Part shown: positions 16,401 to 32,887 of the stretch, piece after piece | Layout: every line of letters begins with the position of its first letter | Position numbering within the stretch: the first letter of the stretch is position 1 | Assembly (NCBI RefSeq): GCF_014270035.1 | Contig: NZ_JACNEP010000004.1 | Location: 1-64,000 of the forward strand | Direction of reading: 5' to 3' | Source of the DNA: Neptunicella marina | GTDB lineage: Bacteria; Pseudomonadota; Gammaproteobacteria; Enterobacterales; Alteromonadaceae | Length of the DNA: 64,000 bases | Notes under the pieces: generated by a model | Told to the model about the DNA's origin: nothing | What the model saw: only the letters and a program-made list of their open reading frames with translations | Databases searched by the model: none | Position numbers and translations under genes: made by a program

Positions 16401-16537
16401 TAGTTTGATGCATGTTCAATGTAAAGCATAATTTTTGTTCACTTAAGTTAACTTGATATAAGTTTTTGATATTTAATGAATTAATAGACAGTGTTAATCT
16501 TAAAATTATTATTTTTACATCGGACAGGGATGACGGG

Positions 16538-17758
16538 ATGCGCTTATTTGATGAGCAAAATAGTGTCAGGTTAACAACAAAGTTACTAATTTGTTTAGCC
16601 TTGTTCGTGGTAAATTCAGTCCATGCTAAGCAAGCGGTTATCGCCAGTTACTATGCCTCCGATGGCAATATTGAAGCTATCAAACAGTTACCCGCCCATA
16701 AGCTTACTCACATTTTGTATGCCTTTATTGCAATATGCGGTGATAACAGTGGTGCAGATAAGCAAACCCAATTAGCGATTAAAAAAGCCTGTAAAGATAA
16801 GAAAAACTATTCCGCTGTATTATTTAATCCTGCAGCTAAAGCTGAGCTGGATGCGTTTAAGCAGTTAAAACAACAACATGCACAACTTAAGGTATTACCT
16901 TCGTTTGGTGGCTGGATATTGTCACAACCTTTTCATGACATAGTTAAAACTCAGGATAACCTGGCATATTTCGTAAAATCAGCGGTTGAATTAATCGCAG
17001 AGTATGACGTATTTGATGGTATTGATATTGACTGGGAGTACCCCGGTGGTGGTGGCAATCAGCAACCAATCTTAGATGGAGCTGCGGCAGACAACGAACG
17101 CATTCAGTATACCAATATGATGAAGTTGCTTCGCCATAAGATGGATCAACTCGCACTAAAAACAGGACGAACCTATCTGTTAAGTGCCGCTGTCAACGGT
17201 ATGCCCTATAAGGTGAACGCCATTGATTGGCGCGGTGTTATTCCTTACATGGATTATGTTTTTGCCATGACCTACGACTTTGCTGTTGGTGACGGACGTG
17301 CCGCCCATCACACCAATTTATTCAGTGACGCCTCCGGTTCAATGAGCGCATCGGCGATGCTGGAAAATTTGCTAGTTGCGGGGGTTCCGTCACAAAAGCT
17401 GGTGATGGGCGCAGCGTTTTATGGTCGTGGCTGGACCCAAAGTGGCTGGCAGGGCGAGGCTTTTGCCGACAATAGTCAGTCAGTGTCTACTGGCAGTTAT
17501 CAATACAGAGAATTGATCGATCAGCCGCCAGCCGGATATGTGTATGGTTTTGATAAAAAAGCGCAAGCGCCATACTTTTACAATTCTGCTAATGATGGAT
17601 TTATCTCTTTTGATGATGCGCGTTCAATTGAAGCCAAAGCCCGATGGGCTAAACAAAAGGACTTAGCCGGGATATTTTCCTGGCAGATCCGTCAGGACAA
17701 TGGAGATTTGCTGGATGCGATGCTTAAAGGTTTTGCAGCAAAGCCTGATGTGCAGTGA
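16538..17758 (+). CDS. GH18 chitinase-like glycoside hydrolase
   Basis: Secreted family 18 enzyme, probably hydrolysing chitin or a related beta-1,4-GlcNAc polymer. The ATG at 16538 gives a 406-aa protein with a signal peptide (hydrophobic TTKLLICLALFVVNSVHA, cleavage near residue 30); a longer TTG-initiated frame is less likely. The catalytic motif DGIDIDWEYPG (DxxDxDxE) is intact. It also has the substrate-binding blocks LKVLPSFGGW, YDYVFAMTYDF-like VFAMTYDFAV, and MGAAFYGRGW. There is no separate chitin-binding module. Its 3' end overlaps the convergent halogenase gene by 35 bp. Confidence 0.93.
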   Translation: MRLFDEQNSVRLTTKLLICLALFVVNSVHAKQAVIASYYASDGNIEAIKQLPAHKLTHILYAFIAICGDNSGADKQTQLAIKKACKDKKNYSAVLFNPAAKAELDAFKQLKQQHAQLKVLPSFGGWILSQPFHDIVKTQDNLAYFVKSAVELIAEYDVFDGIDIDWEYPGGGGNQQPILDGAAADNERIQYTNMMKLLRHKMDQLALKTGRTYLLSAAVNGMPYKVNAIDWRGVIPYMDYVFAMTYDFAVGDGRAAHHTNLFSDASGSMSASAMLENLLVAGVPSQKLVMGAAFYGRGWTQSGWQGEAFADNSQSVSTGSYQYRELIDQPPAGYVYGFDKKAQAPYFYNSANDGFISFDDARSIEAKARWAKQKDLAGIFSWQIRQDNGDLLDAMLKGFAAKPDVQ

Positions 17759-19232
17759 AATTTAACCCACAGCGGCGAATAAAATCATGCACATTGTTCA
17801 GCTCATGCTGATATAGGTGTTTATCAAATTGTGCTTGCGGGTTTTTCGCAGGGAATATGCCATAACCGGCCAGCATACAAGCCCAGGATTTGGCCTGATA
17901 ACTACCCATTAACTGCTGTTTGTGCATCTCTCCAGCAAAGTCAGGACTATGCTGCCACAAATGCAGGATATGTTTGAGCTTGTCGGATATGTGCGGGTTA
18001 TTGGCGTTATCGCGCCAGTAGTTAGTATCGCGGCGCTGATTGGCTTTATAGTGGCATACGACATAATCGCGGATGCCATCAAAACGTTTATTGATATCCT
18101 GATTAAAGGCGTCCTGATACTGATGAGTGAACTGCCCTTGCTCAAAGCACCGGATAAACTGCGCGATAGTATTAAAGGTCAGTGCTATGGCTGTCGCTTC
18201 TAAGGGTTCAATAAAACCCTGGGATAATCCCACTGCTAAACAGTTTTGCTGCCAGTGTTTTGTTACCCGACCTACCTTCATCTTCAGATGTCTGGCTTCA
18301 ACATCGCTTTCGGTTAAATCCAGATGCTGCCTTAGCTCGGTTTCGGCCTGACTGGCATCAGTATAATCGCTGGCATACACATAACCATTGCCAAAGCGAT
18401 TACGCAGAGGGATTTGCCATGCCCAGCCATTAGTAAGTGCAGTGGAGCGGGTGGCAACCGGCGTTGGTGTGGTGATTTCCGAGGGTAACACTACAGCTGC
18501 ATCATTAAATAATGTGTCTTTGTAACTGCTAAATTCAACTTTTAGTGCTTGTTGTAACAACAACGAATTAAAGCCTGAACAATCAATAAAAAAGTCTGCG
18601 TTAAGCTGAGTGTGGTCATCCAGTTTTACTGCACTGATATTGCCGCTGTTACCTAACAACACATCGGTTACATTGCCTATGATGCGTTTAACGCCTTTTT
18701 GCTGCGCATGCTTAGCTAAAAACTGCCCGAGTAAACCTGAATCAAAATGATAGCCATAGGCGATGCCAAACGGAAAAGATTCAGCGGGTAAAGGACCTAA
18801 AACCTGCTCGGATAAATAGGTTTCGAGAAAGTACGAATCCGGATGTGCATTCACATCCAGCCCTTGCATCCGTGCACGGATATTTTTAAAAAACAACGGT
18901 ACGGTAAACACATCGTCGGTTTGGGCAGCAAAGGGATGGAAATAGCTCTCATGGCCTTTTATTTGTGACCAGTTATCAAACCAGATGCCATTTTTATAGG
19001 TGGCGTTGCACGCGGTCATCCAGTCTTTATCCGCAACGCCAATTGCATCAAAAAACAGTTTTAAATGCGGCGTACTGCCTTCACCCACCCCAATAATGCC
19101 GATATCTTTTGATTCAACTAATGTCACCGCCATATCAGGCCATTGGGTTACCAGTAAATTAGCCGCCATCCAGCCAGCGGTGCCACCACCAACGATCAGA
19201 ATGTGTTTAGGTTTATTTTGCGCCTGTTGCAT
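17724..19232 (-). CDS. Flavin-dependent tryptophan-halogenase family protein (distal copy)
   Basis: A 502-aa FADH2-dependent halogenase-family protein. It shows the FAD-binding GGGTAGWMAA at residues 15-24, GVGEGSTP, and a Lys at position 80 in TYKNGIWF, matching the catalytic Lys79 of PrnA/RebH. The family signature WxWxIP is at 270-275 (WAWQIP), and PLEAT with Glu345 matches the catalytic Glu346. All halogenase landmarks are therefore kept. The substrate is unknown; free indoles or an outer-surface peptide are possible. No flavin reductase is in the window. It is the last gene of the operon, 18 bp after the FIH-like gene, and overlaps the GH18 gene tail-to-tail. Confidence 0.9.
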   Translation of the reverse strand: MQQAQNKPKHILIVGGGTAGWMAANLLVTQWPDMAVTLVESKDIGIIGVGEGSTPHLKLFFDAIGVADKDWMTACNATYKNGIWFDNWSQIKGHESYFHPFAAQTDDVFTVPLFFKNIRARMQGLDVNAHPDSYFLETYLSEQVLGPLPAESFPFGIAYGYHFDSGLLGQFLAKHAQQKGVKRIIGNVTDVLLGNSGNISAVKLDDHTQLNADFFIDCSGFNSLLLQQALKVEFSSYKDTLFNDAAVVLPSEITTPTPVATRSTALTNGWAWQIPLRNRFGNGYVYASDYTDASQAETELRQHLDLTESDVEARHLKMKVGRVTKHWQQNCLAVGLSQGFIEPLEATAIALTFNTIAQFIRCFEQGQFTHQYQDAFNQDINKRFDGIRDYVVCHYKANQRRDTNYWRDNANNPHISDKLKHILHLWQHSPDFAGEMHKQQLMGSYQAKSWACMLAGYGIFPAKNPQAQFDKHLYQHELNNVHDFIRRCGLNFTAHQALLQNL

Positions 19233-19250
19233 GTCGGGTTCGTCGTGCCT

Positions 19251-20267
19251 TTATTTTTGTAGTTTGTTGATGAAGTAGTCTTTGATGCTGTTGGCATATT
19301 CGTCTGATACCTCACCCAGTAAGTGCAATTGATGTTCAGGGATATAACTGGCCGGGTCGATATTCTGGCGGAATAGATAATGATCAAACAGGCAGCGCCA
19401 GGCATCACGTTGATGTTGACTAAGGTTACGCATCGCCAGTAACGCCAGATTCAGACTATCGATGGCGCTGGGCGGCATGGCATTAGGTGCAGATGAGCCA
19501 TTCCACCAGTAATTCATTAGCGCATTGACTTTGCTAAGTGATTCCACATGATGCCACCACAGCATCGGGATAAATATTGCGTCGCCTGCTTCAAGCTCGG
19601 CGCTATAAGCCGCTGCCTGGGCTTTTTTATAAAGTGGAAAACGCTCAAAGTCCGGCTGATTGATATCCACCAAACTGGTCGGTGCCCCTGCGGGGGTAAA
19701 ATTAAGTGGCCCCGGATATAAATGGCAAGTTTGCTGCGGGGGGAACAAGATAAATTGCCGTTTGCCTGCCACGACACACGCCAGATTGTCAGAGCCGTCA
19801 TAGTGAGCACTAACAATGCCCTCATTGCCCATCCACAAACGTGGTTCAAGCTCAGGGAAAAACGAGCAGGGATTCGCGTCAATCAGGCCGGGTAAAACCT
19901 CGCTGGTTTTGGCATTTTGCATAGAAATAGCTGGATACACATCGCGCTCAATCAGCTCCAGCAAACGGCCAAAAAACAAGTCTAAACGTTCCTCACCACT
20001 TAAATAATTTACCCCTGTCATATCCTCGTTGTAATAAAAACGTTTATTGGCCGCCGGTGGCGCTACCACCATTCTGGCCTTTTTGCCCTGATAAAACTGA
20101 TTAAGATAAGCAATCAATTCTGCCGGTGTTTTTTGCGCTGCTGCTACCAGTGGCCAGTCTCTGGTAAAACCACGGATCACAACTGGCTGTTGTGCGGGGG
20201 CGATTTCACTAAAAAACTGCTCCGGGGTTAAGGTGGTATATTCTGCGATGGCCTTGTACTGCGTCAT
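19251..20267 (-). CDS. FIH-like cupin/JmjC Fe(II)/2-oxoglutarate oxygenase
   Basis: A 338-aa protein of the cupin_8/JmjC superfamily, related to asparaginyl hydroxylase FIH. The iron-binding facial triad is visible as H155-x-D157 (SAHYDGSDN) and the distal His240 in IPMLWWHHVESL, a block closely matching FIH. Conserved KRQFILFPP and CHLYPGPLNF follow the HxD. The ATG at 20267 overlaps the upstream halogenase stop as ATGA; a longer frame from 20315 would overlap by about 50 bp and is less likely. It may hydroxylate a protein or small molecule also acted on by the two halogenase-like neighbours. Confidence 0.9.
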   Translation of the reverse strand: MTQYKAIAEYTTLTPEQFFSEIAPAQQPVVIRGFTRDWPLVAAAQKTPAELIAYLNQFYQGKKARMVVAPPAANKRFYYNEDMTGVNYLSGEERLDLFFGRLLELIERDVYPAISMQNAKTSEVLPGLIDANPCSFFPELEPRLWMGNEGIVSAHYDGSDNLACVVAGKRQFILFPPQQTCHLYPGPLNFTPAGAPTSLVDINQPDFERFPLYKKAQAAAYSAELEAGDAIFIPMLWWHHVESLSKVNALMNYWWNGSSAPNAMPPSAIDSLNLALLAMRNLSQHQRDAWRCLFDHYLFRQNIDPASYIPEHQLHLLGEVSDEYANSIKDYFINKLQK

Positions 20268-21814
20268 TTCGCCATGGCCCTGGTTTGATGTGTATGATGA
20301 TGAATGGCCGGACAATGCTGGCGAATATACTCAGCGTGTTTGGGCATCTGTATTACCGTATCGTGAATTGTATTCACATTGGTGGTTAGTGTTTTGCTCA
20401 GGCTTTGGAAATCAAAGCCATCCACTAACGGATGATATTTTTTGGGGCGAATTTGCATGCCTTCCAAAATAGAATGCCAGCTGTCCGTGCTAAAAAACTG
20501 GCCATCACGCACTTGCAACTGGCCGCGCTGTTTAAACAATTGCAGCTGTTGTTTAAGTGAATCGGGTACCGGCATTTGCTGGCAATCACGCCAGAAAGGT
20601 GTATCACTGCGCCCGGCAGTGCAATAGTGCAGGATAATAAAATCCCGAATTTCCACATAATCAGCATCGATTTTTTGATTAAACAACTGTTGGTTATCGC
20701 TATCAAAATCGGCATCAGGAAAATGCTGAATAAAATGCACCAGCGTTTTGTAAATCAGGTGAATGGCAGTGGATTCGAGCGGCTCTAAAAAGCCACCAGC
20801 CAGCCCCAGTGCCAGACAGTTTTTATGCCAAATTTTATGGCGCTTACCCGTAACAAAGGGGATGACTCTGGGCTGATTCAGGACGTTACCGTCAACCTGA
20901 TTCAATAAGGTGCTAATCGCCTCATCATCCGGGCAATAACGGCTGGAATAGACATAACCATTGCCTGTGCGTTGTTGCAGTGGAATTTGCCAGCGCCAAC
21001 CGGCATCGAGCGCGGTTGCTATGGTATAGGGTGCAGGTTCTTGTTTATTGTCACTTTGCACCACCACTGCACGGTCACAGGGTAAATACTGTGACCAGTC
21101 CTCATAACCTGTTTTAAGTGTTTGCTCAATTAACAGCCCGTTAAAACCGCTGCAATCAATAAAAAAATCGCTGTTAATTAGTTCGCCAGTTTGCAATTGC
21201 AGATGTTGAATAAAACCCTTGTTATCTAACTCTGCCTTTTTAACTGTGGCTTCAATGCGTTGTACGCCGCGTTGTAAACATAGTTCGCGCAAATAACGTG
21301 CAACTAATACTGCATCCAGATGCAGTGCGTGCGCAGAGTTGCCCAATACCCAGTTGGCCGGATTGCTATTGTTAAGTTGTGGACGCAACATAAAACGCTG
21401 ATGCTGCGCCATAACCGCATTGGGAGAAAAATCGAGCCAGGTGCTTGCGTGACCATCACTCATCGCTTTTAACCAAACCTGATAAAAATCAAATCCGTTG
21501 ACATCTTTGCCTACTTTGCCAAAGGGATGAAAATAGTTTTTACCCTGTTGCAACCAGTCATCAAATCGAATACCCAGTTTGAAAGTGGCACAAGTGGCTT
21601 GAATAAAATCTCTGAGGTTAATCTGACTGGCGCGCAGAAAATCCATTATGGAAGGTACAGTGGATTCTCCTACGCCTGTGCTGGCGATATCAGCTGATTC
21701 CACTAAGGTAATTTTGATATTGCTGCCACCTAAAGTACTGGAAAGCAAAGAGGCAGCCATCCATCCTGCGGTACCACCGCCGACAATACAGATTGTTGTT
21801 ATTTTGTTTTGCAT
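20264..21814 (-). CDS. Flavin-dependent tryptophan-halogenase family protein (proximal copy)
   Basis: A 516-aa FADH2-dependent halogenase-family protein. The dinucleotide-binding motif GGGTAGWMAA is at residues 12-21, followed by GVGESTVPSI. Lys79 in TFKLGIRF falls at the same number as the catalytic lysine of PrnA/RebH. WRWQIP (273-278) is the family WxWxIP signature, and PLEST with Glu347 matches the second catalytic residue. It differs clearly in sequence from the distal copy, so this is not a recent duplication. It is translationally coupled (ATGA) to the FIH-like gene and lies 132 bp downstream of the TonB receptor gene. Confidence 0.91.
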   Translation of the reverse strand: MQNKITTICIVGGGTAGWMAASLLSSTLGGSNIKITLVESADIASTGVGESTVPSIMDFLRASQINLRDFIQATCATFKLGIRFDDWLQQGKNYFHPFGKVGKDVNGFDFYQVWLKAMSDGHASTWLDFSPNAVMAQHQRFMLRPQLNNSNPANWVLGNSAHALHLDAVLVARYLRELCLQRGVQRIEATVKKAELDNKGFIQHLQLQTGELINSDFFIDCSGFNGLLIEQTLKTGYEDWSQYLPCDRAVVVQSDNKQEPAPYTIATALDAGWRWQIPLQQRTGNGYVYSSRYCPDDEAISTLLNQVDGNVLNQPRVIPFVTGKRHKIWHKNCLALGLAGGFLEPLESTAIHLIYKTLVHFIQHFPDADFDSDNQQLFNQKIDADYVEIRDFIILHYCTAGRSDTPFWRDCQQMPVPDSLKQQLQLFKQRGQLQVRDGQFFSTDSWHSILEGMQIRPKKYHPLVDGFDFQSLSKTLTTNVNTIHDTVIQMPKHAEYIRQHCPAIHHHTHQTRAMAK

Positions 21815-21946
21815 ACTGCTGCCGTTTAAACCCGATGCGTCACTCCTGTGAGGTTTACTACTATTTATTGTTTGAACCTAAAAGTAAACAAACTGCGCAG
21901 TATTGCTACCAGGCAGTTTGTTTTCTTTTTAAGTTAAAACCATTTA

Positions 21947-24900
21947 TCAGAAGGTTGCCCGCACTGTTAACGCAAACCGGCGATCAGTGGTAAAGGTAAA
22001 CCCATCGGTTAAGGTACCTTGCTGATTTTGCTGATATTGAGTTTGAGTCTTCTCATCAAGCACGTTATTTATCTGCAATCCTACTTTGACTTGTTCATTA
22101 ACGGCATAAAAGAAGCTGGCATCCATCATGCCTTGTGCCTTGGAATATGCCGGAACAAACTCTTCAGATTCACGTAAGGTCAACAGATATTCTGAGCGCC
22201 ATGTATAGGCTAAACGGAAAGAAATATCATCCTTTTCGTACATACCAACGATGTTGTAGTTTTGGTCTGAATAGCCCTGTAATGGCAGACCCGTAAACTG
22301 ACGGAACGAATTGCGATTATCACTAATCGGCACACCCGCGCCATCATATTGGATGGCCTGAGTTGGGTTAGTATTCGGATCTTCCAAACCACTCTGGTCA
22401 ATATAGGTATAGTTAAGTTGCAAGCCCAAACCGCTCATCCAGCCGGGTAACATATCGTAAAACTGACTGTAGGATATCTCGAACCCACGAATGGTGCCGG
22501 AACCGGTGTTATCCGGGCCATAGGCCGAAACCGGGAAACGGGTTCCATCGACTTCCACTTCGGTGGAAAATTGTCTGTTGCGAATGATGTTTGACAGTTT
22601 TTTATGGAACAGGCCTGCGGTGAGTGACCCTGCCTCGGCAAAATACCATTCAGTGGTTAAATCAAGATTAATTGCATCTTCAGGTTCAAGGAATGGGTTA
22701 CGGGCATTGGCACTGATTTCAATGTTTTTCAGATCAATAACAGGGTTAGTGGTGTCATCTCTGGCTTCATCAGGATTCTGTAAAACCTGTTGATAGTCCA
22801 GGCTAAGTACCATTTTGTTAGCTGAATCGACCAAACTTGGGTAATACAGGCCTTTAGATGCACCGAATCGGATCACCACATCATCTGTTACTCCAAAGCT
22901 CAGATTTAGGCTGGGTAACACGGTGGTATAATCGGTACCGTCTACTGTACTGGAGATGGCCTCACCTGATGCTAAAGCAAAAATACTGGGGTATTGATTT
23001 AACATGACCTGATATAGCGAACCATTTTCGTCAGTACCGCGACGGGCTGTTGATGGAAAATTAACACCACCGGTCGATTGCAACTGATAGTTAACATAGC
23101 GCAGGCCAAAATTACCTTTGACCAACACATCAGACATTTCCACATCAAAGTCAGCACGTACATAAAACTCGGTACGTTCGGTGGTACTGGCACTAATATG
23201 TCTTGGGGCAAAATGACTAAATGCGCGATCTGCTAAGTCAGCGTATGGTAATGCACAAGCTCCGCTACCATCCATCGCATTACCTACTGCATTCCAGGTG
23301 CCACAGCCATCACGCAAACTTTGTTCGTAGTTTTGCACCAAATCCATACGGGGGAATAAAAAGCTGTTATTAGGCCCAAGCAGGGTATTGCCATCATTGT
23401 GGTCAGCAAAGCTGACACGCTCAAATAATTCAGGAACAACCTGTGGTGAGGCATTATATGAGTCCTGTGCTATCCAGGGGGTGCCCAAAGCTTGCCAGCC
23501 TTCGTACTCAGTATTACGTACAATTAGCTCTTTTTTGGAATGATACAAGCCGGCTTTTATGGCGCTAAACGCCCCTGCCAGTTTGTATTCCACATCCAGC
23601 TGGAAGGTATTAGCCTTAGCTTCATTAAACTCCTCTTGTTGCATGCCACTGCCTAATCGTAAAAACGGATTGGTGTTTTCTTCTACATCAGGTGGCATCG
23701 AAGTATTAGCATTCAAAAATTCCAACTGTGGATCCGAACCTCTTAAATCGAGGAAAAATGGTGCATTTTCAGCGGTTTGATTTCCATTCATGATGGAGGT
23801 CATGCCGTTATTATGAACCACTTGTTCGGAATCAATATGCTGATAATCGATAGCAACAGTTAGCAGGTCTGTTGGTGTAAAGACCACGTTCAGCGACGTA
23901 TCCTTAACTTTATTCTCATTAAAGTTATAACGAGAGCGGAATTGAAGCGGGACATTCGGCTCGCTTGCATGACCGACACCGGAGGTCACGTAACCATTCT
24001 CATCAACAGTTAAAGGGTGGCCACTGTCGCTTTCATCAAACCATTGAATTGCATTGGGAGCATAAGGTTTAAACGCCTGATCGGCCTGAGTAACAACGTG
24101 TTCCCGCCATACTAAAGACGCGGTAGAACTAATATGTTCCAGTGTTGCTGTAATTTTTTCGTCAGGGCTTTGCCATTGCAATGCGGCAGTAAAGCCGCGG
24201 CGCTTGCGATCATTTTCAGCCGTGGTCATTGTGTAGCTGGCCGGTGCATACCAGGTGGCACCTTCAGGTTGTCCTTCCAGTTCCTGACCGTCAAACGCTG
24301 GAACATAATTAGCGGCATCAGCATCGGTATATTGAACCGCATCCGGGAACCCCAGATTGTCACAGTTCCGCCAATCTGACGCATCAGGTATACATGGCTC
24401 AGAATACTGACCAGCATTAATACCAGGGCTGGGTGTACCCCATTCGTCGTATGAAAAAGTATCCAGTGGCCCACGGCTGTGAAAATTACCTAAACCAAAA
24501 CCATCACCCCGGGTTTGATATTCAGATTGAGAGGCGGCAATCAATAAACCAAATTTGCCCGAATCAGTGTCCCAGTTATCTGAAAAAAGCGCGCTGAATG
24601 ATGGGGTGGTTTCTTTACGGTAATCGCCATAATTAGCCTGGGCACTGACTGCGATTAAACGTTCATCAGAATCAAAAGGTTTACGTGTTACCAAATTAAC
24701 CGTACCGGCAATGCCGCCGGAAATCAGGTCGGCAGTTTGGTTTTTTACCACTTCAACGGCGCCAAGTAATTCTGCGGGAAAGTCTTCATAACTTAAACCT
24801 CCCCAGGGATTCGCACTAAAACTATCGCGACCATTAATTTCACTGCGAACTCTGTCCAAACCACGTACTAGTACGCTGGTACCCTCATCAGCATAGTGTT

Positions 24901-25204
24901 TAGGATCGTCTGAAGCAGCAAAACGCTCAATGGTAACGCCTGGCACACGTTGCAGTGCCTCCGTAACTGAGCTATCGGGCAGTGCACCTATGTCTGATGC
25001 GGTAATGGCATCTTTTACCGTGTCGGCAAATCGTTTTAGATCCTGAGCGGTTTGAATACTTTGCCGAATTCCACGTATTTCAATGACCTCAGTTGGGTCA
25101 TCACTTTTCGGTTGTTCTGTAGTGGTTTCCTGAGCTATAACCGGCGCTGAGAGTGCGCATGATATTGCCAGAACAAGATGCTTTTTCTTAAATTTATCAG
25201 ACAT
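21947..25204 (-). CDS. TonB-dependent receptor (halogenase-operon type)
   Basis: A 1085-aa outer-membrane active transporter. It has a signal peptide (LVLAISCALSAPVIA, cleavage before QETT) and a TonB-box-like stretch EVIEIRGIR (about 41-49). The plug domain (DIGALPDSSVTEALQRVPGVTIER through GGIAGTVNLVTRKPFD) leads to a long beta-barrel ending in ALTVRATF with a terminal aromatic. It is the large Caulobacter/Alteromonas type rather than a siderophore receptor, usually associated with oligosaccharide uptake. The ligand is unknown. It is the first gene of the operon with the two halogenases and the FIH-like oxygenase. Two LacI-type operators lie 93-138 bp upstream of the start. Confidence 0.94.
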   Translation of the reverse strand: MSDKFKKKHLVLAISCALSAPVIAQETTTEQPKSDDPTEVIEIRGIRQSIQTAQDLKRFADTVKDAITASDIGALPDSSVTEALQRVPGVTIERFAASDDPKHYADEGTSVLVRGLDRVRSEINGRDSFSANPWGGLSYEDFPAELLGAVEVVKNQTADLISGGIAGTVNLVTRKPFDSDERLIAVSAQANYGDYRKETTPSFSALFSDNWDTDSGKFGLLIAASQSEYQTRGDGFGLGNFHSRGPLDTFSYDEWGTPSPGINAGQYSEPCIPDASDWRNCDNLGFPDAVQYTDADAANYVPAFDGQELEGQPEGATWYAPASYTMTTAENDRKRRGFTAALQWQSPDEKITATLEHISSTASLVWREHVVTQADQAFKPYAPNAIQWFDESDSGHPLTVDENGYVTSGVGHASEPNVPLQFRSRYNFNENKVKDTSLNVVFTPTDLLTVAIDYQHIDSEQVVHNNGMTSIMNGNQTAENAPFFLDLRGSDPQLEFLNANTSMPPDVEENTNPFLRLGSGMQQEEFNEAKANTFQLDVEYKLAGAFSAIKAGLYHSKKELIVRNTEYEGWQALGTPWIAQDSYNASPQVVPELFERVSFADHNDGNTLLGPNNSFLFPRMDLVQNYEQSLRDGCGTWNAVGNAMDGSGACALPYADLADRAFSHFAPRHISASTTERTEFYVRADFDVEMSDVLVKGNFGLRYVNYQLQSTGGVNFPSTARRGTDENGSLYQVMLNQYPSIFALASGEAISSTVDGTDYTTVLPSLNLSFGVTDDVVIRFGASKGLYYPSLVDSANKMVLSLDYQQVLQNPDEARDDTTNPVIDLKNIEISANARNPFLEPEDAINLDLTTEWYFAEAGSLTAGLFHKKLSNIIRNRQFSTEVEVDGTRFPVSAYGPDNTGSGTIRGFEISYSQFYDMLPGWMSGLGLQLNYTYIDQSGLEDPNTNPTQAIQYDGAGVPISDNRNSFRQFTGLPLQGYSDQNYNIVGMYEKDDISFRLAYTWRSEYLLTLRESEEFVPAYSKAQGMMDASFFYAVNEQVKVGLQINNVLDEKTQTQYQQNQQGTLTDGFTFTTDRRFALTVRATF

Positions 25205-25296: not shown

Positions 25297-25342
25297 TGAC
25301 AGCGTTGTCATTTTTTTGAGGTGATAAGTGACAGCGTTGTCA
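25297..25342 (-). promoter_or_regulatory. Tandem LacI-family operators upstream of the TonB receptor/halogenase operon
   Basis: Two identical 14-bp sites TGACAGCGTTGTCA (25297-25310 and 25329-25342) have palindromic ends TGACA/TGTCA. They are spaced 32 bp apart, about three helical turns. The CG-centred palindrome is the usual LacI/GalR-type operator form. No LacI-family gene is in the window, so the regulator would act in trans. The sites lie in a 577-bp gap (25205-25781) shared with the divergent aminotransferase gene; nothing else recognisable is in that gap. Confidence 0.75.
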
Positions 25343-25781: not shown

Positions 25782-27020
25782 GTGCAAGTCTCAGTACCAA
25801 AGCAAATTGTTCCGCTCGACAGTATTTTACCCGATGAACCCCTGTTAATGATGGGAGCCGGACCGGTTCCTGTGCCGGCACGGGTGGCGGCGGCCAACGG
25901 TATTGTGATTAATCACCTTGGCGACACCATGGCGCAGATTATTGAGCAGGTTAAAATCATGTCGCGCTACGTATTCCAGACCCAAAATGGCTACATTTTA
26001 GGTGTCGCCGGACCAGGTTCTGCCGCAATGGAAATGGCGGTTGCTAACTTAGTGGTACCTGGCTCCAAAGTGCTAAGCATCTGTAATGGTTTTTTCAGTC
26101 ATCGCTTAGCGGAAATGGCGCTGCGTTTAGAAGCTGATGTCGTGAAGCTGGAAGTGGCTCAGGGTTTTACCGCAGATCTGGATGTGGTTGAACAATATCT
26201 GATACAACATCGCCCACAGGTCATGACCATAGTGCAGGGCGAGACCTCCAATACTGTGTGTAATCATAATCTTGCGGCTATTACTAAACTGGCCAAACAG
26301 TACGATTGTTTAGTGATTGTGGATGCCGTTTGTACGCTAAGCACCATGCCGCTGGATATGGATGAGTGGGGTATCGATGCGGTGATTACTGGCGGTCAAA
26401 AAGGCTTGTCCTGTATTCCGGGTATTTCACTGGTGGGCTTTTCTGAGCAAGCCTGGCAACTTATTCAATCGCGCACAGATCAGCTGCGGCATTGGTGTCT
26501 GGATGCCAAACTGGCGGAGCAGTTCTGGTATAAAAAGTCTTATCATTACACTGCGCCGGTATCTGGCATTCTGGCCATTCATGAAGCGATGCGTTTAATC
26601 ATTAATGAAACGCTTCCTGTTCGTTTTGATCGTCACCTGCGTTGTTCTCAGGCACTACAAGCTGGCATTGAAGCATTAGGATTGCAGTTATTTGTTAAAC
26701 CACATAACCGATTGAATTCTGTAGTGGGAATCGAAGTGCCGGATGGCATTGATGCCAAAGCGGTACTTAAATACATGTCGAGTCGCTACCGCGTGGAAAT
26801 ATCCGGTTCATTTGGCCCGAACATAGTGCGTATTGGCCAGATGGGTGAACAATGCCGTGCGCATAATCTGTTCCGTACCTTACATGCATTGGGCGCCAGT
26901 TTTATATCCATGGGCTGTAAACTGGATTTACCGGCCGGTGTGGCTGCGCTGGAAAGCACACTGGATCGTTATGAATTTCCACCGGAACAACATTTGTCTG
27001 CGGTAAACGCGATTAAATAA
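25782..27020 (+). CDS. PLP-dependent alanine/serine-glyoxylate-type aminotransferase
   Basis: A 412-aa fold-type I aminotransferase of the AGXT/SPT class, which transfers the amino group of alanine or serine to glyoxylate or a related 2-oxo acid. The PLP lysine is Lys207 in ITGGQKGLSC. Also visible are the N-terminal GAGPVPVPARV, GPGSAAMEMA, and VDAVCTLSTMPLDMDEWGID with the PLP-contacting Asp. The start is GTG behind AAGGATC. It is followed after 156 bp by an FMN-dependent 2-hydroxyacid oxidase, a pairing that fits glycolate/glyoxylate or lactate metabolism. Confidence 0.87.
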   Translation: MQVSVPKQIVPLDSILPDEPLLMMGAGPVPVPARVAAANGIVINHLGDTMAQIIEQVKIMSRYVFQTQNGYILGVAGPGSAAMEMAVANLVVPGSKVLSICNGFFSHRLAEMALRLEADVVKLEVAQGFTADLDVVEQYLIQHRPQVMTIVQGETSNTVCNHNLAAITKLAKQYDCLVIVDAVCTLSTMPLDMDEWGIDAVITGGQKGLSCIPGISLVGFSEQAWQLIQSRTDQLRHWCLDAKLAEQFWYKKSYHYTAPVSGILAIHEAMRLIINETLPVRFDRHLRCSQALQAGIEALGLQLFVKPHNRLNSVVGIEVPDGIDAKAVLKYMSSRYRVEISGSFGPNIVRIGQMGEQCRAHNLFRTLHALGASFISMGCKLDLPAGVAALESTLDRYEFPPEQHLSAVNAIK

Positions 27021-27176
27021 TTGTTGTTTATAACCGCTCATTTACACCCGTGATTGAGCGGTTGTCGCTTGCTAAAAATGACAGCTAATGGTCTGATAAA
27101 CATACAAAAATTGGGTTTACACCGGCTGCTAACAGTAATATGAAATATCTGTCTCAGCCTCGTTGAGTATTTTAAT

Positions 27177-28337
27177 ATGACAGCTGTTTCCAATGATTAT
27201 TTTAACCCCTCATTTCCTGATTCTGCATCATTAAGACTGGCCGCAAAAAAACGCATGCCGGGGTTCGCCTTTGATTATCTGGAAGGGGGCTGTATTGACG
27301 AAAGAGGGTTGAGCCATAACCGTGACGTATTGCAGGCGGTTAAATTACGTAGCCAGTTATTAAAAGTCTTTGATAAAAGCGATTTGAGTTGCGAGCTTTT
27401 TGGTCACACCTATGACCTGCCATTTGGTATTGCACCGGTTGGCCTGCAAGGACTGATGTGGCCTAACGCGCCGGAAATTCTGGCTAAAGCTGCTGCAAAT
27501 TTAAATATTCCCTATGTGTTAAGTACAGTGTCTTCAACCTCGCTGGAGCGCATTAGCGAAGTGTCAGAGGGCAGAGCCTGGTTTCAATTGTACAATCCAA
27601 CCAGGAGTGAAATACGTCAGGATTTGCTTAAACGTATTCATGCTGCACGCATTCCTGTGTTGATGGTAACAGTGGATGTGCCTACCTTTGGTTATCGGGT
27701 CAAAGACATTAAAAATGGTTTGTCGATGCCCCCCAAAATGACCTTGTCCAATATATTGCAAATGGTGAGCAGGCCGAACTGGCTCTATCACACCGCGTTG
27801 TCGGGTAAGCCGAAAATGCAGACATTATTGCCATATATGCCCAAGGGCATGCCGGTGGATCAGCTTGCCGCTTTTATGAATAACACTGTGATGGGGCGGG
27901 TCGATATCGAAGGTTTGCAGCCAATCCGTGATCAGTGGCAAGGTCCGTTGATTATTAAAGGTTTAGTCAGTCAGGATGATGTGGAGTTAGCGGTAAAACT
28001 GGGCGCCGATGCTGTTATTTTGTCTAATCATGGCGCTCGCCAGCTGGATGCCGGTGAGTCTCCCTTTGAAAACCTGGCAGCTATTAAACAACGTTTTGGT
28101 CAGCAACTTAAAATTATGGTGGATAGCGGTATCCGAAGTGGTTCAGAGGTTGCCTGTGCCATGGCCGCGGGTGCCGATTTTAGTTTTCTGGGGCGAACAT
28201 TTGTTTATGGTGTGGGGGCTCTTGGTGATAAAGGCGGGGTGCATACTATTAATATGCTGAGAAAACAATTTGAGCAAACCATGAACCAGTTACGTTGTCC
28301 GGATGTACCTTCATTGCCAGATTATTTGGTGCAATAG
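27177..28337 (+). CDS. FMN-dependent alpha-hydroxy-acid oxidase/dehydrogenase (LldD-like)
   Basis: A 386-aa TIM-barrel flavoprotein oxidising an L-2-hydroxy acid (L-lactate, glycolate or similar) to the 2-oxo acid. The active-site His285 and Arg288 are in ILSNHGARQLD, and FMN-binding blocks FGIAPVGLQGL, VTVDVPTFGYR and VDSGIRSGSEV are present. Length is typical of LldD and glycolate oxidase. It converges on the rhamnose isomerase gene and shares a bidirectional terminator with it. L-lactate produced by the rhamnose pathway would be an obvious substrate, but this is inference; the upstream aminotransferase would suit a glyoxylate role instead. Confidence 0.88.
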   Translation: MTAVSNDYFNPSFPDSASLRLAAKKRMPGFAFDYLEGGCIDERGLSHNRDVLQAVKLRSQLLKVFDKSDLSCELFGHTYDLPFGIAPVGLQGLMWPNAPEILAKAAANLNIPYVLSTVSSTSLERISEVSEGRAWFQLYNPTRSEIRQDLLKRIHAARIPVLMVTVDVPTFGYRVKDIKNGLSMPPKMTLSNILQMVSRPNWLYHTALSGKPKMQTLLPYMPKGMPVDQLAAFMNNTVMGRVDIEGLQPIRDQWQGPLIIKGLVSQDDVELAVKLGADAVILSNHGARQLDAGESPFENLAAIKQRFGQQLKIMVDSGIRSGSEVACAMAAGADFSFLGRTFVYGVGALGDKGGVHTINMLRKQFEQTMNQLRCPDVPSLPDYLVQ

Positions 28338-28362
28338 TTTAGCTCTCATCTTGTAAATATAT

Positions 28363-28390
28363 AAAAAAAGCCCCGTTTACCGGGGCTTTT
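28363..28390. terminator. Bidirectional rho-independent terminator
   Basis: The stem AAAAGCCCCG / CGGGGCTTTT with a 5-nt loop has an A-run on the left and T-run on the right. It can therefore end both the plus-strand hydroxyacid oxidase transcript and the minus-strand rhamnose isomerase operon. Confidence 0.9.
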
Positions 28391-28406
28391 GGGTTATCGA
28401 TACAAT

Positions 28407-29699
28407 CTAAACAATACCTGAGCCAGAACTTTGTGATGCCGGACGTTGTTCTTTAAGGTTTTGCCTGTAATTGGCTTTGCGATAGGTTTCAATTGGATTA
28501 ATTGCGCCACCCGAGCGTAAACGTGCCATCGCTAAAATAGGTGATACATCCGTATGGAATGCTGCTTTTAGGGTATTGCTTGCCATTAGTGCGTCATTGT
28601 CATCCTGATAGGCATAAAGGGCCTTACGATTAACCAGTTTAGCCTGAACAAACGAGCGCTGAACCGATTCTGCTGAATTGACCAGACTCTCAATCGGGTC
28701 GGTGACATTATGCGACTGATCAAGCATATAGGCTGGATTAAAGCTGTCTGCTTTTCGGTATTCGGCATCAACCAGTTCATTAAATATTAGGAACTGTTGA
28801 TAAGGGTTTATTGAGCCACTATCCAGATCATCATCACCGTATTTGCTGTCATTAAAATGGAATCCCGCCAGTTTTTTAAACTGTATTAAGCGCGATACGA
28901 TCATTTCAATGTTCACGTTCGGTGCATGGTGACCCAAATCCACCAGAGATTTGGCTTTTTCGCCCAATTCCAAGGCGCATAAAATATTGGTGCCCCAATC
29001 CTGGATCACGGTTGAATAGAACGCCGGTTCGAACATTTTGTGTTCGATAAACATTGTCCAGTCATCGGGTAATGAGTTGTATATCACTCTGGCTGAGTCC
29101 AGGTAACGCTCGAGTGCGCGGCTGAAATGCTGCTGGCCCGGGTGGTTACTACCATCGCCAACCCACACTGTAAGTGCTTTACTGCCCAGTACCCGGCCGT
29201 AAGCAATGCAATCGAGATTATGTTGTATTGCTTGTTCGCGCGTCGCTTGCTGGGTGTGAGTTAGGCTGCCGTATTTGTAACTGTGAATCTGTCCTTGCTG
29301 ATCCTGAAAGGTATTGGAATTGACTGCATCAAAACCAAGGCCAAGTGAGTCTGCCTGTTGTTTGACTGCTGTCATATCATCAACAACATCCCACGGGAAA
29401 TGCGGTGATACTTTCGGTGTGCATTTAACCAGACGTTGAATAACGCCACAGTCGTCTAACTTTTCAAAAATATTACGTGGCTCGGCTACACCGGGGAAAC
29501 GCGCAAACCGGGTACCGCCTGTGCCGACACCCCAGGTTGGAACGGCGATTTCAAATTGTTGTGCTGCAGAAACTAAATCTTCTATATCAACATTTTGCGT
29601 GGCAAGTTTTTCGCCTAAATATTGGTACTCACGATTTAACTGCGGTTTCAGCGCCTGATTGGCGTCATCAATAAAATTAATGTCTAACAAATTCGTCAC
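28407..29699 (-). CDS. rhaI: L-rhamnose isomerase, RhaI type
   Basis: Metal-dependent TIM-barrel isomerase converting L-rhamnose to L-rhamnulose. At 430 aa it belongs to the Pseudomonas stutzeri-type catabolic isomerases and not the E. coli RhaA family. Metal-binding and substrate residues are expected in FIEHKMFEPAFYSTV (Glu, His), DLGHHAPNVNIEMIVSRL and GFHFNDSKYGDDDLDSGS (His, Asp cluster). It lies 18 bp downstream of the aldolase/dehydrogenase gene on the same strand, so the two form the minus-strand arm of the rhamnose locus. Confidence 0.92.
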   Translation of the reverse strand: MTNLLDINFIDDANQALKPQLNREYQYLGEKLATQNVDIEDLVSAAQQFEIAVPTWGVGTGGTRFARFPGVAEPRNIFEKLDDCGVIQRLVKCTPKVSPHFPWDVVDDMTAVKQQADSLGLGFDAVNSNTFQDQQGQIHSYKYGSLTHTQQATREQAIQHNLDCIAYGRVLGSKALTVWVGDGSNHPGQQHFSRALERYLDSARVIYNSLPDDWTMFIEHKMFEPAFYSTVIQDWGTNILCALELGEKAKSLVDLGHHAPNVNIEMIVSRLIQFKKLAGFHFNDSKYGDDDLDSGSINPYQQFLIFNELVDAEYRKADSFNPAYMLDQSHNVTDPIESLVNSAESVQRSFVQAKLVNRKALYAYQDDNDALMASNTLKAAFHTDVSPILAMARLRSGGAINPIETYRKANYRQNLKEQRPASQSSGSGIV

Positions 29700-29717
29700 T
29701 TGGTTATCCTGTCATAC

Positions 29718-31910
29718 TTATCGAAGGAAAGCTTCATGCAGACCACCGTCCACACTGATTATTTGCCCCGTGGTTTTGCTTAACTGACCTGAAATCAGTA
29801 AATAAGCGGCCTCGGCCTGATCTTCCGGCGTTATCGGTTGCTGAGTTAAAGTGCGTGTAGCATAAAACTCTGCCAGTTTGGTACGTAAGTCATCATCACT
29901 TTCGTCTTCTGCAAAAGAAATGGAATATTTGCTCAGTGAGGCAATCACCCTGTCTCTGGGGAACATAGTGCTGCCCTTAACCACAGTGGCAGGAGCTAAA
30001 CCATTGACATTGACCAGAGGCGCCAGTTCGATTGCCAGTTCACGCATCAGATGGTTGGCTGCTGCTTTACTGGTGTCATAGGCCAGCGAGCCTTTTTTAG
30101 CCACAACACCATTGACGCTGGTTGTCAGTACTAATGCTCCGGGCAGATTTTGTTGTTTCCAGATTTTGGCTGCTTCAGTGGCGACGATATACCCGCCTTT
30201 AACATTAACCGCAAAACTGGCATCAAACATTTCATCTGCCGACATACCCTGTTGGCCGGGGGCTAAAAATACACCCGCGGTGACAATCACTTTATCAATA
30301 CCACCGTATGCTAAAACAACCTGTTCAAACAGATTCTTAACATTGTTTCTGTCAGTAATATCTGCACTCAGGGCCACGGCGGGTCCACAGCCGGAAATAC
30401 CACTACCGGCAACACCTATGCCTTGTCCGTAAATATTAATTAATTCATTTGCTGTTTGTTCTGCCGCTTCAATGCGTAAGTCGGCACAAATGACATGCGC
30501 ACCTTCTTTTGCCACTCTGTGTGCGGTTGCTTTACCAATGCCGTCTCCTGCGCCGATTACTACGACAACGTCACGTGCCAGAGGTTTCTCCGGTGGCATA
30601 CGCTGTAACTTGGCTTCTTCCAGTGCCCAGTATTCAATATCAAACGCTTCCTGTTGCGGCAGGGCGGTATATTCACTGATGGCTTCGGCACCACGCATTA
30701 CTTCAATTGCACAGTTATAGAATTCAGTGGTTACCCGCGATTCACTTTTATTTTTGCCCCAGCCAATCATGCCGATGCCAGGAATCAGTACCACAGTTGG
30801 ACTGGGGTCGCGCATGGGTGGTGAGTCAGGATGTTTGCACTGCTCATAGTATGCGCTGTAATCCAGCCGGTACTGCTCAAGGCCGGTTTTAAAACTGTCT
30901 ATCAGTTGCTGTACTGATTGTTGTTGCGGATCCCAGTGAACTAACAAAGGTTTAATTTTGGTGCGTAAAAAATGATCCGGACAAGAGGTGCCTAATGCGG
31001 CTAATCGCTGCGCATCATGACTGTTAACAAAGCGTAATGTGGCGTCATCGCTCTGAACTGTGGCAATAAATTTATTTGCTGTGGAAATGAGTCCACGCGC
31101 TACCGGCAGAAACTCCGCTAATATGTCATTGCGCTCAGATTCGCTCAGACTTTGATAACGTGCACCACCAAAGGTGTGTTCACCTTTATCCCGTTGTTCA
31201 ATATAACGTGCTGCGGTTTCTATTACCCAAAGCGAGGTTTCATAACAGTCTTTGCTGTTATCTTCCCAGTTGGTATGGCCATGCTGGCCCAGTAAGATCC
31301 CTTTAATATCCGGATTTTTTTCATAAACGTCGGAACACAATTTGGCCGCTTCCCATCCGGGACGCATCCAGGGCACATAGGCTAACTGGCCTTGCCACAC
31401 TTCATGTGTCAGCCTTTCCTGATCTTTACAGGATGCAATCGCAATCACAGCGTTAGGATGCAAATGATCCACATGTTTTTTCTGGATCATCGAATGTAGT
31501 GGAGTATCGATTGATGAGGCGCGTTGATTAAGGCAGAAAACACAATGGGGAAACAAGCTAACCATAGTATCTTCACCGGCGGATTTATAGCCTTTCTCCG
31601 GCATTGTCTGGTAAAGCTCATCCAGCGCCTGCAGTTTATCTTCATATAAGGACGCAAAGTTGGCTCTGGTTGCTGTTCTTAAATCTCCGCCTGAACCTTT
31701 TACCCATAATATTTTTACTTTTTTACCTGTTAAAGGATCGGTTTCTTCCAGCTTGGCTGACGTATTACCACCACCTGTATTGGTAATTCTCTGGTCAGAA
31801 CCGAGCAAATTCGAGCGATAAACAAGATTATCAACCGGATCGAGTTTGTCAGCGACTTCATCAGACCAGAGGTAATTTACGTGGCGGTAGTGGTTCTGCG
31901 GGTCCTGCAT
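29718..31910 (-). CDS. Bifunctional rhamnulose-1-phosphate aldolase / lactaldehyde dehydrogenase
   Basis: A 730-aa fusion. The N-terminal class II aldolase domain (about 1-430; NTGGGNTSAK, HPNAVIAIA, LLGQHGHTNW carry the metal-binding His and Glu) splits L-rhamnulose-1-phosphate to DHAP and L-lactaldehyde. The C-terminal SDR domain (about 450-730; VVVIGAGDGIGKATA for NAD binding, YDTSKAAANHL with the catalytic Tyr-xxx-Lys) oxidises lactaldehyde to L-lactate. This matches the RhaEW architecture known in Bacillus and other bacteria. It is the first gene of the minus-strand arm, divergent from the DeoR regulator across a 188-bp gap with repeated ATTATC motifs. Confidence 0.93.
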   Translation of the reverse strand: MQDPQNHYRHVNYLWSDEVADKLDPVDNLVYRSNLLGSDQRITNTGGGNTSAKLEETDPLTGKKVKILWVKGSGGDLRTATRANFASLYEDKLQALDELYQTMPEKGYKSAGEDTMVSLFPHCVFCLNQRASSIDTPLHSMIQKKHVDHLHPNAVIAIASCKDQERLTHEVWQGQLAYVPWMRPGWEAAKLCSDVYEKNPDIKGILLGQHGHTNWEDNSKDCYETSLWVIETAARYIEQRDKGEHTFGGARYQSLSESERNDILAEFLPVARGLISTANKFIATVQSDDATLRFVNSHDAQRLAALGTSCPDHFLRTKIKPLLVHWDPQQQSVQQLIDSFKTGLEQYRLDYSAYYEQCKHPDSPPMRDPSPTVVLIPGIGMIGWGKNKSESRVTTEFYNCAIEVMRGAEAISEYTALPQQEAFDIEYWALEEAKLQRMPPEKPLARDVVVVIGAGDGIGKATAHRVAKEGAHVICADLRIEAAEQTANELINIYGQGIGVAGSGISGCGPAVALSADITDRNNVKNLFEQVVLAYGGIDKVIVTAGVFLAPGQQGMSADEMFDASFAVNVKGGYIVATEAAKIWKQQNLPGALVLTTSVNGVVAKKGSLAYDTSKAAANHLMRELAIELAPLVNVNGLAPATVVKGSTMFPRDRVIASLSKYSISFAEDESDDDLRTKLAEFYATRTLTQQPITPEDQAEAAYLLISGQLSKTTGQIISVDGGLHEAFLR

Positions 31911-32098: not shown

Positions 32099-32887
32099 AT
32101 GCTTAAATCGCAACGTCATCATTTGATTCTGGATCTTCTGGACGAGAGGCGATCAATTACAGTTCAGGAATTAACGACTGAGCTGTCGGCTTCTGAGGCC
32201 ACTATCCGTCGCGACCTATCTGAATTAGCGGATGAGGGAAAATTAAAAAAGGTACATGGTGGTGCAGAATGGCCGGAAGCGAATAAAAAACGTCGTTTGC
32301 AGCATCTGGAAGGCAGCGCTTTTCTGGTCGATAAAGAACGTAAAATCAGGGAAAAACAACTGATAGCGCGTAAAGCGGTAGAGCTGTGTGAAGAAGGTGA
32401 ATCCATCATTATTAATGGTGGCAGTTCAACTTATATGATGGCCGAGTATCTGGCTAAACGCGAGCTCAACATACTGACCAACTCTTTCCCGCTGGCACTT
32501 GAGCTGCTCGAAACCAGCGACAACCGTATTACCTTGCCGGGTGGTGAGCTGTACCGCAAACAGAAATTAATTCTTAGCGCATTTGAACACGACACTATCA
32601 AGCATTACCACGGTACCAAGATGTTTATGGGTACACCCGGAGTGGGTGATTACGGGGTGATGGAATCTGATCCCTTGTTGATTAGTGCTGAACAAAAATT
32701 AATGCGTCAGGTTGACCAGTTAATTGTTTTGGCTGACTCAAGCAAACTTGGCAAACGCTCGAATTTTATCCTGTGTCCTCTGGAAGAGGTGGACATTTTA
32801 ATCACTGACAGCGGGGCGGATGATAAATATCTGCGGTTATTCGCAGAGCATGGGGTTCAGACCATTATTGTGGACGCTGAACAATAA
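32099..32887 (+). CDS. DeoR-family transcriptional regulator of the rhamnose locus
   Basis: A 262-aa regulator with an N-terminal DeoR winged helix-turn-helix (about 1-57; QRHHLILDLLDERRSITVQEL, ATIRRDLSELADEGKLKKVHGG). A C-terminal sugar-phosphate sensor domain of the DeoRC type follows (IIINGGSSTYMMAEYL, NILTNSFPLALELL, DSSKLGKRSNF). It probably binds the divergent promoter region and responds to a phosphorylated rhamnose intermediate. It is the first gene of the plus-strand arm, 40 bp upstream of the permease. Rhamnose loci controlled by DeoR rather than AraC-type RhaR/S are known in several lineages. Confidence 0.92.
   Translation: MLKSQRHHLILDLLDERRSITVQELTTELSASEATIRRDLSELADEGKLKKVHGGAEWPEANKKRRLQHLEGSAFLVDKERKIREKQLIARKAVELCEEGESIIINGGSSTYMMAEYLAKRELNILTNSFPLALELLETSDNRITLPGGELYRKQKLILSAFEHDTIKHYHGTKMFMGTPGVGDYGVMESDPLLISAEQKLMRQVDQLIVLADSSKLGKRSNFILCPLEEVDILITDSGADDKYLRLFAEHGVQTIIVDAEQ

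Follow-up and report, generated by a model that had tools for sequence, protein, structure and literature searches.

The window analysed is a stretch of 64,000 nucleotides of the Neptunicella marina genome (assembly GCF_014270035.1, contig NZ_JACNEP010000004.1, positions 1 to 64,000). Four genes on its minus strand are described here. They are transcribed in the order TonB-dependent receptor, flavin-dependent halogenase A (HalA), FIH/JMJD5-like cupin and flavin-dependent halogenase B (HalB), and all four open reading frames are intact (Table 1). The receptor and HalA genes are separated by 132 bp, the HalA and cupin genes share a 4 bp ATGA overlap (cupin start at 20267) and 18 bp lie between the cupin and HalB genes. 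The original prediction, made from the letters of the window alone, had named a TonB receptor, two halogenases and an FIH-like oxygenase in one tightly coupled minus-strand operon. Coordinates, overlap and gap were reproduced on recomputation, and the gene identities were confirmed by profile scores far over the cut-offs: 568.5 bits for HalA and 434.4 bits for HalB with PF04820 (cut-off 21), 238 bits for the cupin with PF13621 and 533 bits for the receptor with TIGR01782 (cut-off 310). The organisation as a single unit also held, the same order recurring across genera. The GH18 gene converging on the unit shares its last 35 bp with HalB and gave the sole PF00704 match found in the 4.14 Mb genome.

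Table 1. Features of the four-gene locus and its immediate surroundings in the window.
Feature	Position	Strand	Basis
TonB-dependent receptor, TIGR01782 (Xanthomonas-Caulobacter type), predicted chitooligosaccharide receptor	21947..25204	-	TonB barrel and plug, TIGR01782 profile
Flavin-dependent halogenase A (HalA), PF04820	20264..21814	-	Profile, residues, tree
FIH/JMJD5-like cupin, PF13621, predicted Fe(II)/2-oxoglutarate oxygenase, 338 aa	19251..20267	-	Profile, alignment, fold model
Flavin-dependent halogenase B (HalB), PF04820, GVGEGST subtype	17724..19232	-	Profile, residues, tree
GH18 chitinase-family gene (PF00704), convergent with HalB	16466..17758	+	Profile
Operator-like palindrome TGACAACGCTGTCA, copy 1, receptor-proximal	25297..25310	.	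Pattern search
Operator-like palindrome TGACAACGCTGTCA, copy 2	25329..25342	.	32 bp from copy 1

The palindrome TGACAACGCTGTCA occurs twice, without mismatch, upstream of the receptor gene. The pattern TGACANCGNTGTCA gave ten perfect sites in the whole genome and none in the reversed control; with up to one mismatch 24 sites were found against 11 in the reversed control, so that most of the 14 additional sites are probably due to chance. Five of the ten perfect sites fall in an N-acetylglucosamine (GlcNAc) locus (C42:16033-27888), the genes of which comprise a LacI-family regulator (C42:14837-15874), a receptor, three halogenases, an SMP-30-like protein, GH20, NagK, NagB-II, NagA and NagP. The NCBIfam cut-offs were passed by NagB-II (540 bits, cut-off 430) and NagA (277 bits, cut-off 226), while NagK (364 bits, cut-off 370) and NagP (528 bits, cut-off 625) matched the Shewanella models below cut-off. 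Single perfect sites were found before a series of OngC-OngR-OngB-RidA-SSS-GH20-type genes (C41:201414-209495), before an HGSNAT-like gene (C33) and before another TIGR01782 receptor (C2:102614-108706). The last, with a neighbour carrying F5/F8-type domains and no halogenase seen adjoining, is a second candidate receptor of the regulon. The operator is common to the four-gene unit and the GlcNAc catabolic genes, and from this gene context we infer a NagR-type regulon and the identity of its regulator.

GlcNAc loci of the same type, with operators, a TonB receptor, a halogenase and GlcNAc genes, recur in 13 relatives (L090, L098, L107, L118, L122, L131, L136, L142, L147, L157, L161, L166 and L168); SapC is present in all of them except L157 (12/13), and the receptor of L107 lies past the contig end. 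Operators were counted in 24 of the 36 genomes with halogenase matches, giving 82 perfect sites against six for the reversed pattern. When N. marina was omitted, 32 of 65 listed sites in 16 genomes (65 of the 72 sites outside N. marina) lay within 10 kb of a halogenase, where 1.2 were expected. For 13 of the 14 closer named loci, and likewise for the relative G134, the 400 bp preceding the receptor contain an operator with no more than one mismatch (reversed control, 0). In L230 (L230:10090) and in the G052 homologue (L213:1455) the only copy is instead in-frame within the receptor gene itself, close to the start codon, and reflects either intragenic control or coincidence.

The OngC-, OngR-, OngB-, RidA-, SSS- and GH20-type genes of N. 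marina match members of the ong cluster of Pseudoalteromonas prydzensis, for which published work describes the use of C1-oxidised chitooligosaccharides, a TonB receptor and control by OngR (PMC9537276). They are located about 176 kb from the receptor operon under the same operator. In P. arctica (L229), A. indicum (L230), A. sediminis (L231) and G134 (L160) such genes adjoin the four-gene unit itself; the G134 stretch covers OngB-, OngR- and OngC-type genes only, and the Pfam check of OngR covered L160 among the relatives. GH18-type genes lie near the unit in L229 and L237, while in L233, L234 and L238 they follow downstream with the same orientation. A scan of 148 genomes of the order, in which the best five candidates per genome were scored, found the receptor in three, all of them among the 17 with OngC (P = 0.0013); within the ten genomes of the family the association gave P = 0.008, and kinship is handled only by this family-restricted count. 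A maltodextrin-type locus with a receptor, two halogenases including a HalB paralogue, a LacI-family regulator, a major facilitator superfamily transporter and GH13 directly adjoins the ong-like cluster of N. marina (C41:188896-209495).

Because its operators are shared with the GlcNAc and ong loci, ong-like genes adjoin it in four relatives and the one GH18 gene found in N. marina overlaps it, the four-gene set is very probably a chitooligosaccharide/GlcNAc uptake operon of the NagR-type regulon; repressor binding and chitooligosaccharide uptake would follow from what is known of these families. The original prediction had the enzymes perhaps halogenating or hydroxylating a ligand or peptide handled by the receptor. 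The notion of a handled ligand stands in sharper form, since operator sites and neighbours point to chitin-derived sugars.

The survey of gene neighbourhoods proposed with the original prediction recovered the four-gene order widely. Scanning named genomes for the receptor yielded 15 loci, 11 of which keep the order receptor-HalA-cupin-HalB (the cupin being doubled in three), with receptors 62-85% identical to that of the window. The carriers are Paraglaciecola hydrolytica, P. arctica, Bowmanella pacifica, B. yangjiangensis, B. denitrificans, B. dokdonensis, Arsukibacterium indicum, Alteromonas sediminis, Lacimicrobium alkaliphilum, a Colwellia and an unclassified Alteromonadaceae, so that the exact unit spans six named genera; G134 has the exact order too, with a receptor 74% identical. 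The four other loci are two of Thalassotalea with the order receptor-HalA-GH18, a second A. sediminis receptor with another halogenase and a distant Lysobacteraceae contig. Genes in the loci of relatives were named by their best BLAST matches to a small reference set. Beside the unit in 12 relatives no additional recurring gene was found except the ong-like and GH18 genes, unlabelled neighbours being left unannotated.

Both halogenases retain GxGxxG, WxWxIP and the lysine expected for catalysis (Lys79 in HalA, Lys80 in HalB). HalB Lys80 and Glu345 align onto Lys79 and Glu346 of PrnA (PrnA residues being numbered along the alignment after subtraction of the tag), which we take to be its catalytic residues, and the counterpart glutamate of HalA is Glu347, inside an EPLES motif. 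The residues listed in the original prediction, including a glutamate near 346, were thus recovered. Lysine and WxWxIP are invariant in 15 HalA and 13 HalB sequences. Among 132 PF04820 proteins from the fetched loci the lysine is kept in 130 and the second glutamate of EPLE in 129, so the loss of these residues from most homologues, which the original prediction had named as a refuting result, was not seen; WxWxIP ends in Pro in 81 of the proteins and in Gly in 36. A PF04820-like protein lying between two intact halogenases, HALX_deg (C33:331354-332769; L029:17354-18769), has Ser in place of the lysine and Gln in place of the glutamate, and is perhaps a non-catalytic partner.

In sequence searches the PDB chains closest to HalA were 9luq, 6y1w (E = 1.2e-126) and 6frl (E = 1.1e-125); 6frl is presumably BrvH and 6y1w presumably Xcc4156. 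HalB is about equidistant from the tryptophan halogenases and BrvH. By leaf order in the halogenase tree, HalA groups next to the halogenases of GlcNAc loci and HalB with the second halogenase of the maltodextrin-type locus. HalB, the halogenase covered by the alignment with 5lv9 and 8fov, does not keep the Trp4 substrate motif of the YYHGLPPYS type, which marks free-tryptophan halogenases of groups A and B (PMC8269204).

The iron triad HxD...H of the cupin is formed by His155, Asp157 and His239, and its block IPMLWWHHVESL aligns with IPMYWWHHIESL of FIH, giving an FIH-like IPMxWWHH block; the claim that the oxygenase keeps both elements was correct. His155, Asp157, Asn161, Arg170, His239 and Asn248 are invariant in 37 cupins. 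Arg170 is aligned at the place of FIH Lys214, which we assume to bind the 2-oxoglutarate carboxylate, and could fill the same role. In sequence searches too the cupin matched FIH and JMJD5. The predicted cupin model, with a mean predicted local distance difference test (pLDDT) score of 90.1, has the double-stranded beta-helix fold of the JmjC group, with a JMJD5 match at Z = 26.1 (root-mean-square deviation 2.3, 226 aligned residues). TYW5, presumably an RNA hydroxylase, is as close to the model as the members of the FIH/JMJD5 group. The cupin gene occurs as a tandem duplicate in L229, L230 and L231, the second copy being 58-62% identical to the window cupin. These are exactly the named loci with adjoining ong-like genes; G134, which also has them adjoining, carries one copy.

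The pairing of receptor and halogenase extends beyond this operon. The N. marina genome contains 13 PF04820 genes in six clusters, every one of which adjoins one of the 20 TIGR01782 receptors over cut-off. Of 82 halogenase loci in relatives, 70 had a recognisable receptor nearby; the others were cut by contig ends or had receptors too distant or none. SapC, the cupin and DUF6445 are the recurring partners of the halogenases. Twenty of the 22 cupin matches, from 16 genomes, lie within 500 bp of a halogenase match, one lies at 980 bp and one is on a contig without a halogenase. Sets of receptor and halogenase also occur in loci with GH13, for which we infer maltodextrin as the sugar. In Sphingomonas the order receptor-SapC-cupin-halogenase is found, and such genes also stand beside xylanase, GH43 and GH115 genes (third-party annotation). 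The original prediction had considered the pairing of two divergent halogenases with a protein-hydroxylase-like enzyme poorly explained. This was not upheld, because sets of a receptor, one or more halogenases and SapC, cupin or DUF6445 are found repeatedly at sugar-uptake loci, both within the order and in Sphingomonas. SapC (PF07277; L032:10660-11388 and 45 relatives in the fetched loci) is a frequent halogenase partner with a model pLDDT of 96.4. It was considered as another oxygenase fold and rejected, since no PDB match was returned by Foldseek at E = 0.001 or by a second comparison at Z = 2. A sequence search with DUF6445 gave no meaningful PDB match.

Halogenase clades track the receptor class. 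In a tree of 162 leaves, of which the 18 without a receptor label were uncounted, the receptor-class label changes 16 times over the 144 labelled leaves; in 200 shuffles the mean was 91 changes and the least 82. Receptor and halogenase distances within genomes were correlated (rho = 0.40 for 80 pairs from 12 genomes; null 0.08, standard deviation 0.11; 0 of 1000 permutations).

We propose the following sequence of events. In the presence of a GlcNAc-type inducer, the LacI-family repressor would leave the two operators, and the receptor would be made together with three cytoplasmic O2-using enzymes, namely two flavin halogenases and an FIH/JMJD5-like hydroxylase. The receptor would import chitin-derived oligosaccharides, perhaps C1-oxidised ones, and the enzymes would modify its aromatic and other side chains ahead of export. 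Enzymes of these families require FADH2 or Fe(II)/2-oxoglutarate, plus O2; no export signal was seen by eye in the three proteins, the FAD motif lying near the N-terminus in both halogenases, and for these reasons they should act in the cytoplasm. A protein encoded in the same operon would be the likeliest target, because maltodextrin has no aromatic group and no further gene recurs except the ong-like and GH18 genes. That the enzymes are dedicated to the receptor or its function is likely. That their target is an exported polypeptide modified in the cytoplasm, the receptor first or another exported partner, is speculative and somewhat unlikely, and is suggested by analogy with QhpG. QhpG is a cytoplasmic flavoprotein with an FAD-halogenase-like structure that dihydroxylates a Trp of a co-encoded polypeptide before translocation (PMC7876137). 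The complete explanation, from regulon and uptake to dedicated enzymes and an exported-polypeptide target, is put forward tentatively, with slightly more doubt than confidence. A broader proposal is rather doubtful: bacteria would brominate and/or hydroxylate side chains of outer-membrane sugar receptors under sugar regulation, using one or more class-specific halogenases and an FIH-like or SapC/DUF6445 partner. Such a system would have escaped notice because the enzymes are annotated as natural-product-type tryptophan halogenases.

Several observations weigh against this explanation or parts of it. The G052 receptor, 56% identical to that of the window, has no adjoining halogenase, and the Pseudoalteromonas ong cluster with working receptors is described, in the text available, without a halogenase or cupin (PMC9537276); halogenases are therefore not essential for such uptake. 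Six of the 24 halogenase-bearing genomes have no perfect operator site, and L230 has none in the 400 bp scanned upstream of its receptor. Two negative results oppose a strict role in oxidised-chitin use: no kdgK-type gene was noted in N. marina in the interval from the SSS to the GH20 gene, and an AA10 lytic polysaccharide monooxygenase (LPMO; PF03067) was found in 0 of the 10 family genomes, N. marina, G134 and G052 included; scavenging of oxidised chitin products released by others is possible. With the QhpG model NF049967, HalA and HalB scored 38.8 and 40.0 bits, far under the cut-off of 240. Inheritance of whole blocks could yield the agreement in the tree without contact between receptor and enzyme, so clade tracking does not establish such contact. 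A marker residue for receptor modification was sought and none was found: none of the alignment columns discriminates between the 78 TIGR01782 receptors linked to a halogenase and the 54 unlinked ones (best difference 0.43, residue 5; for the unlinked set two of 40 loci, L192 and L208, carried cassette genes and were excluded, and G072:C1:2082880 lay outside the comparison). The low rating of the protein-target step reflects this result and the G052 homologue.

Alternatively, the PF04820 proteins may be flavin monooxygenases or oxygen/halide-dependent redox helpers, with indole halogenation in vitro as a side activity. We regard this as rather improbable. Weak profile matches of these proteins to QhpG, a monooxygenase, and to LodB and GoxB, which are maturases, fit such a role, as do HALX_deg, which lacks both Lys and Glu beside an intact paralogue, and the WxWxIP proline, present in only 81 of the 132 proteins. 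However, a pure monooxygenase need not keep the lysine and the second EPLE glutamate, and these are kept in 130 and 129 of the 132.

Retention of the halogenation residues in both HalA and HalB would also agree with a small-molecule product, in which case chitin sugars would trigger synthesis of a brominated or hydroxylated indole-type metabolite, which would act as a signal, a deterrent or a ligand at the surface and would either travel with the receptor system or compete through it. This is unlikely: among the labelled neighbours in the 12 relatives nothing recurs beside the unit except ong-like and GH18 genes, and similar enzymes, mostly in clades of their own, pair with the receptor classes of different sugar loci, whereas a single metabolite predicts otherwise. 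The receptor-specific clades also fit ligand-specific enzymes, and cuticle chitin is linked to aromatic residues, so the enzymes might act on aromatic groups that the glycan brings in, as in cuticle chitin bearing catechol or tyrosine. This is very unlikely, since maltodextrin-type GH13 loci carry the same kind of halogenase although their presumed sugars have no aromatic part, and the enzymes show no export signal by eye while the receptor delivers to the periplasm. A remnant of a natural-product cluster is disfavoured, because among the labelled neighbours in the 12 relatives only ong-like and GH18 genes recur by the unit, and the enzymes recur in sugar loci.

The part of the window that adjoins the receptor promoter (25782-31910) contains class V aminotransferase, FMN-dependent dehydrogenase, isomerase-like and aldolase/dehydrogenase genes, of which those at 28407-31910 are presumably a rhamnose-type set. 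A link of this set to the unit was considered and rejected. The receptor promoter and two further genes separate it from the unit, a DeoR-family regulator is encoded at 32099, and no rhamnose-type gene was labelled within 10 kb of the four-gene unit in L225-L238, for which reason it is treated as a separate locus.

If the receptor is the target of the enzymes, as proposed above, glycan uptake would involve a new type of protein modification, with such sets seen in Gammaproteobacteria and Sphingomonas. An enigmatic halogenase family is tied here to sugar uptake, which makes its natural target testable: the chitin/GlcNAc operator supplies a likely inducer, a partner receptor and carbon sources for finding the halogenase substrate, and receptors with and without halogenases offer a clean comparison for that search. 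What is new is a four-gene unit of fixed composition that stands under a chitin/GlcNAc operator and includes an FIH-like cupin and a second, divergent halogenase. No paper joining BrvH-branch halogenases to a GlcNAc/chitin regulon was found in the open literature, most subscription papers being outside this coverage. Halogenases reportedly lie beside GlcNAc receptors in Xanthomonas and beside maltodextrin and GlcNAc receptors in Caulobacter, so absence from print is not claimed. The word 'halogenase' is absent from the main texts of the published NagR regulon papers PMC2996990 and PMC5343134, and PMC1790865 contains no mention of halogenase, SapC or Pass1. Halogenase transcripts of Colwellia are interpreted as antibiotic- or phage-related in PMC11337851.

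Compared with known systems, the C42 locus has the regulator family, nag-type genes and TonB receptors of the NagR regulon, which in Shewanella and Xanthomonas combines a LacI-family regulator with NagK/NagB-II/NagA/NagP-type genes and TonB receptors (PMC2996990, PMC5343134). The C41 locus has OngC-R-B-D-like, SSS and GH20 genes in common with the ong cluster and differs from it in that no kdgK was seen and no AA10 LPMO was found. With FIH, JMJD5 and TYW5 the cupin shares the fold, HxD...H and the IPMxWWHH block, but it has Arg170 for FIH Lys214 and about 22% identity. QhpG provides a precedent for a cytoplasmic enzyme with a co-encoded target, although HalA and HalB reach only 39-40 bits against its cut-off of 240. 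Halogenases of the BrvH branch are active on indoles in vitro. The branch and its lack of an established native substrate are documented in PMC7336383, PMC5945002 and PMC8269204, and BrvH likewise adjoins a second halogenase (PMC5945002). BrvH and Xcc4156 have the same residues as HalA; the set described here differs in its link to a chitin/GlcNAc operator and in the company of an FIH-like cupin and of a second halogenase that is divergent.

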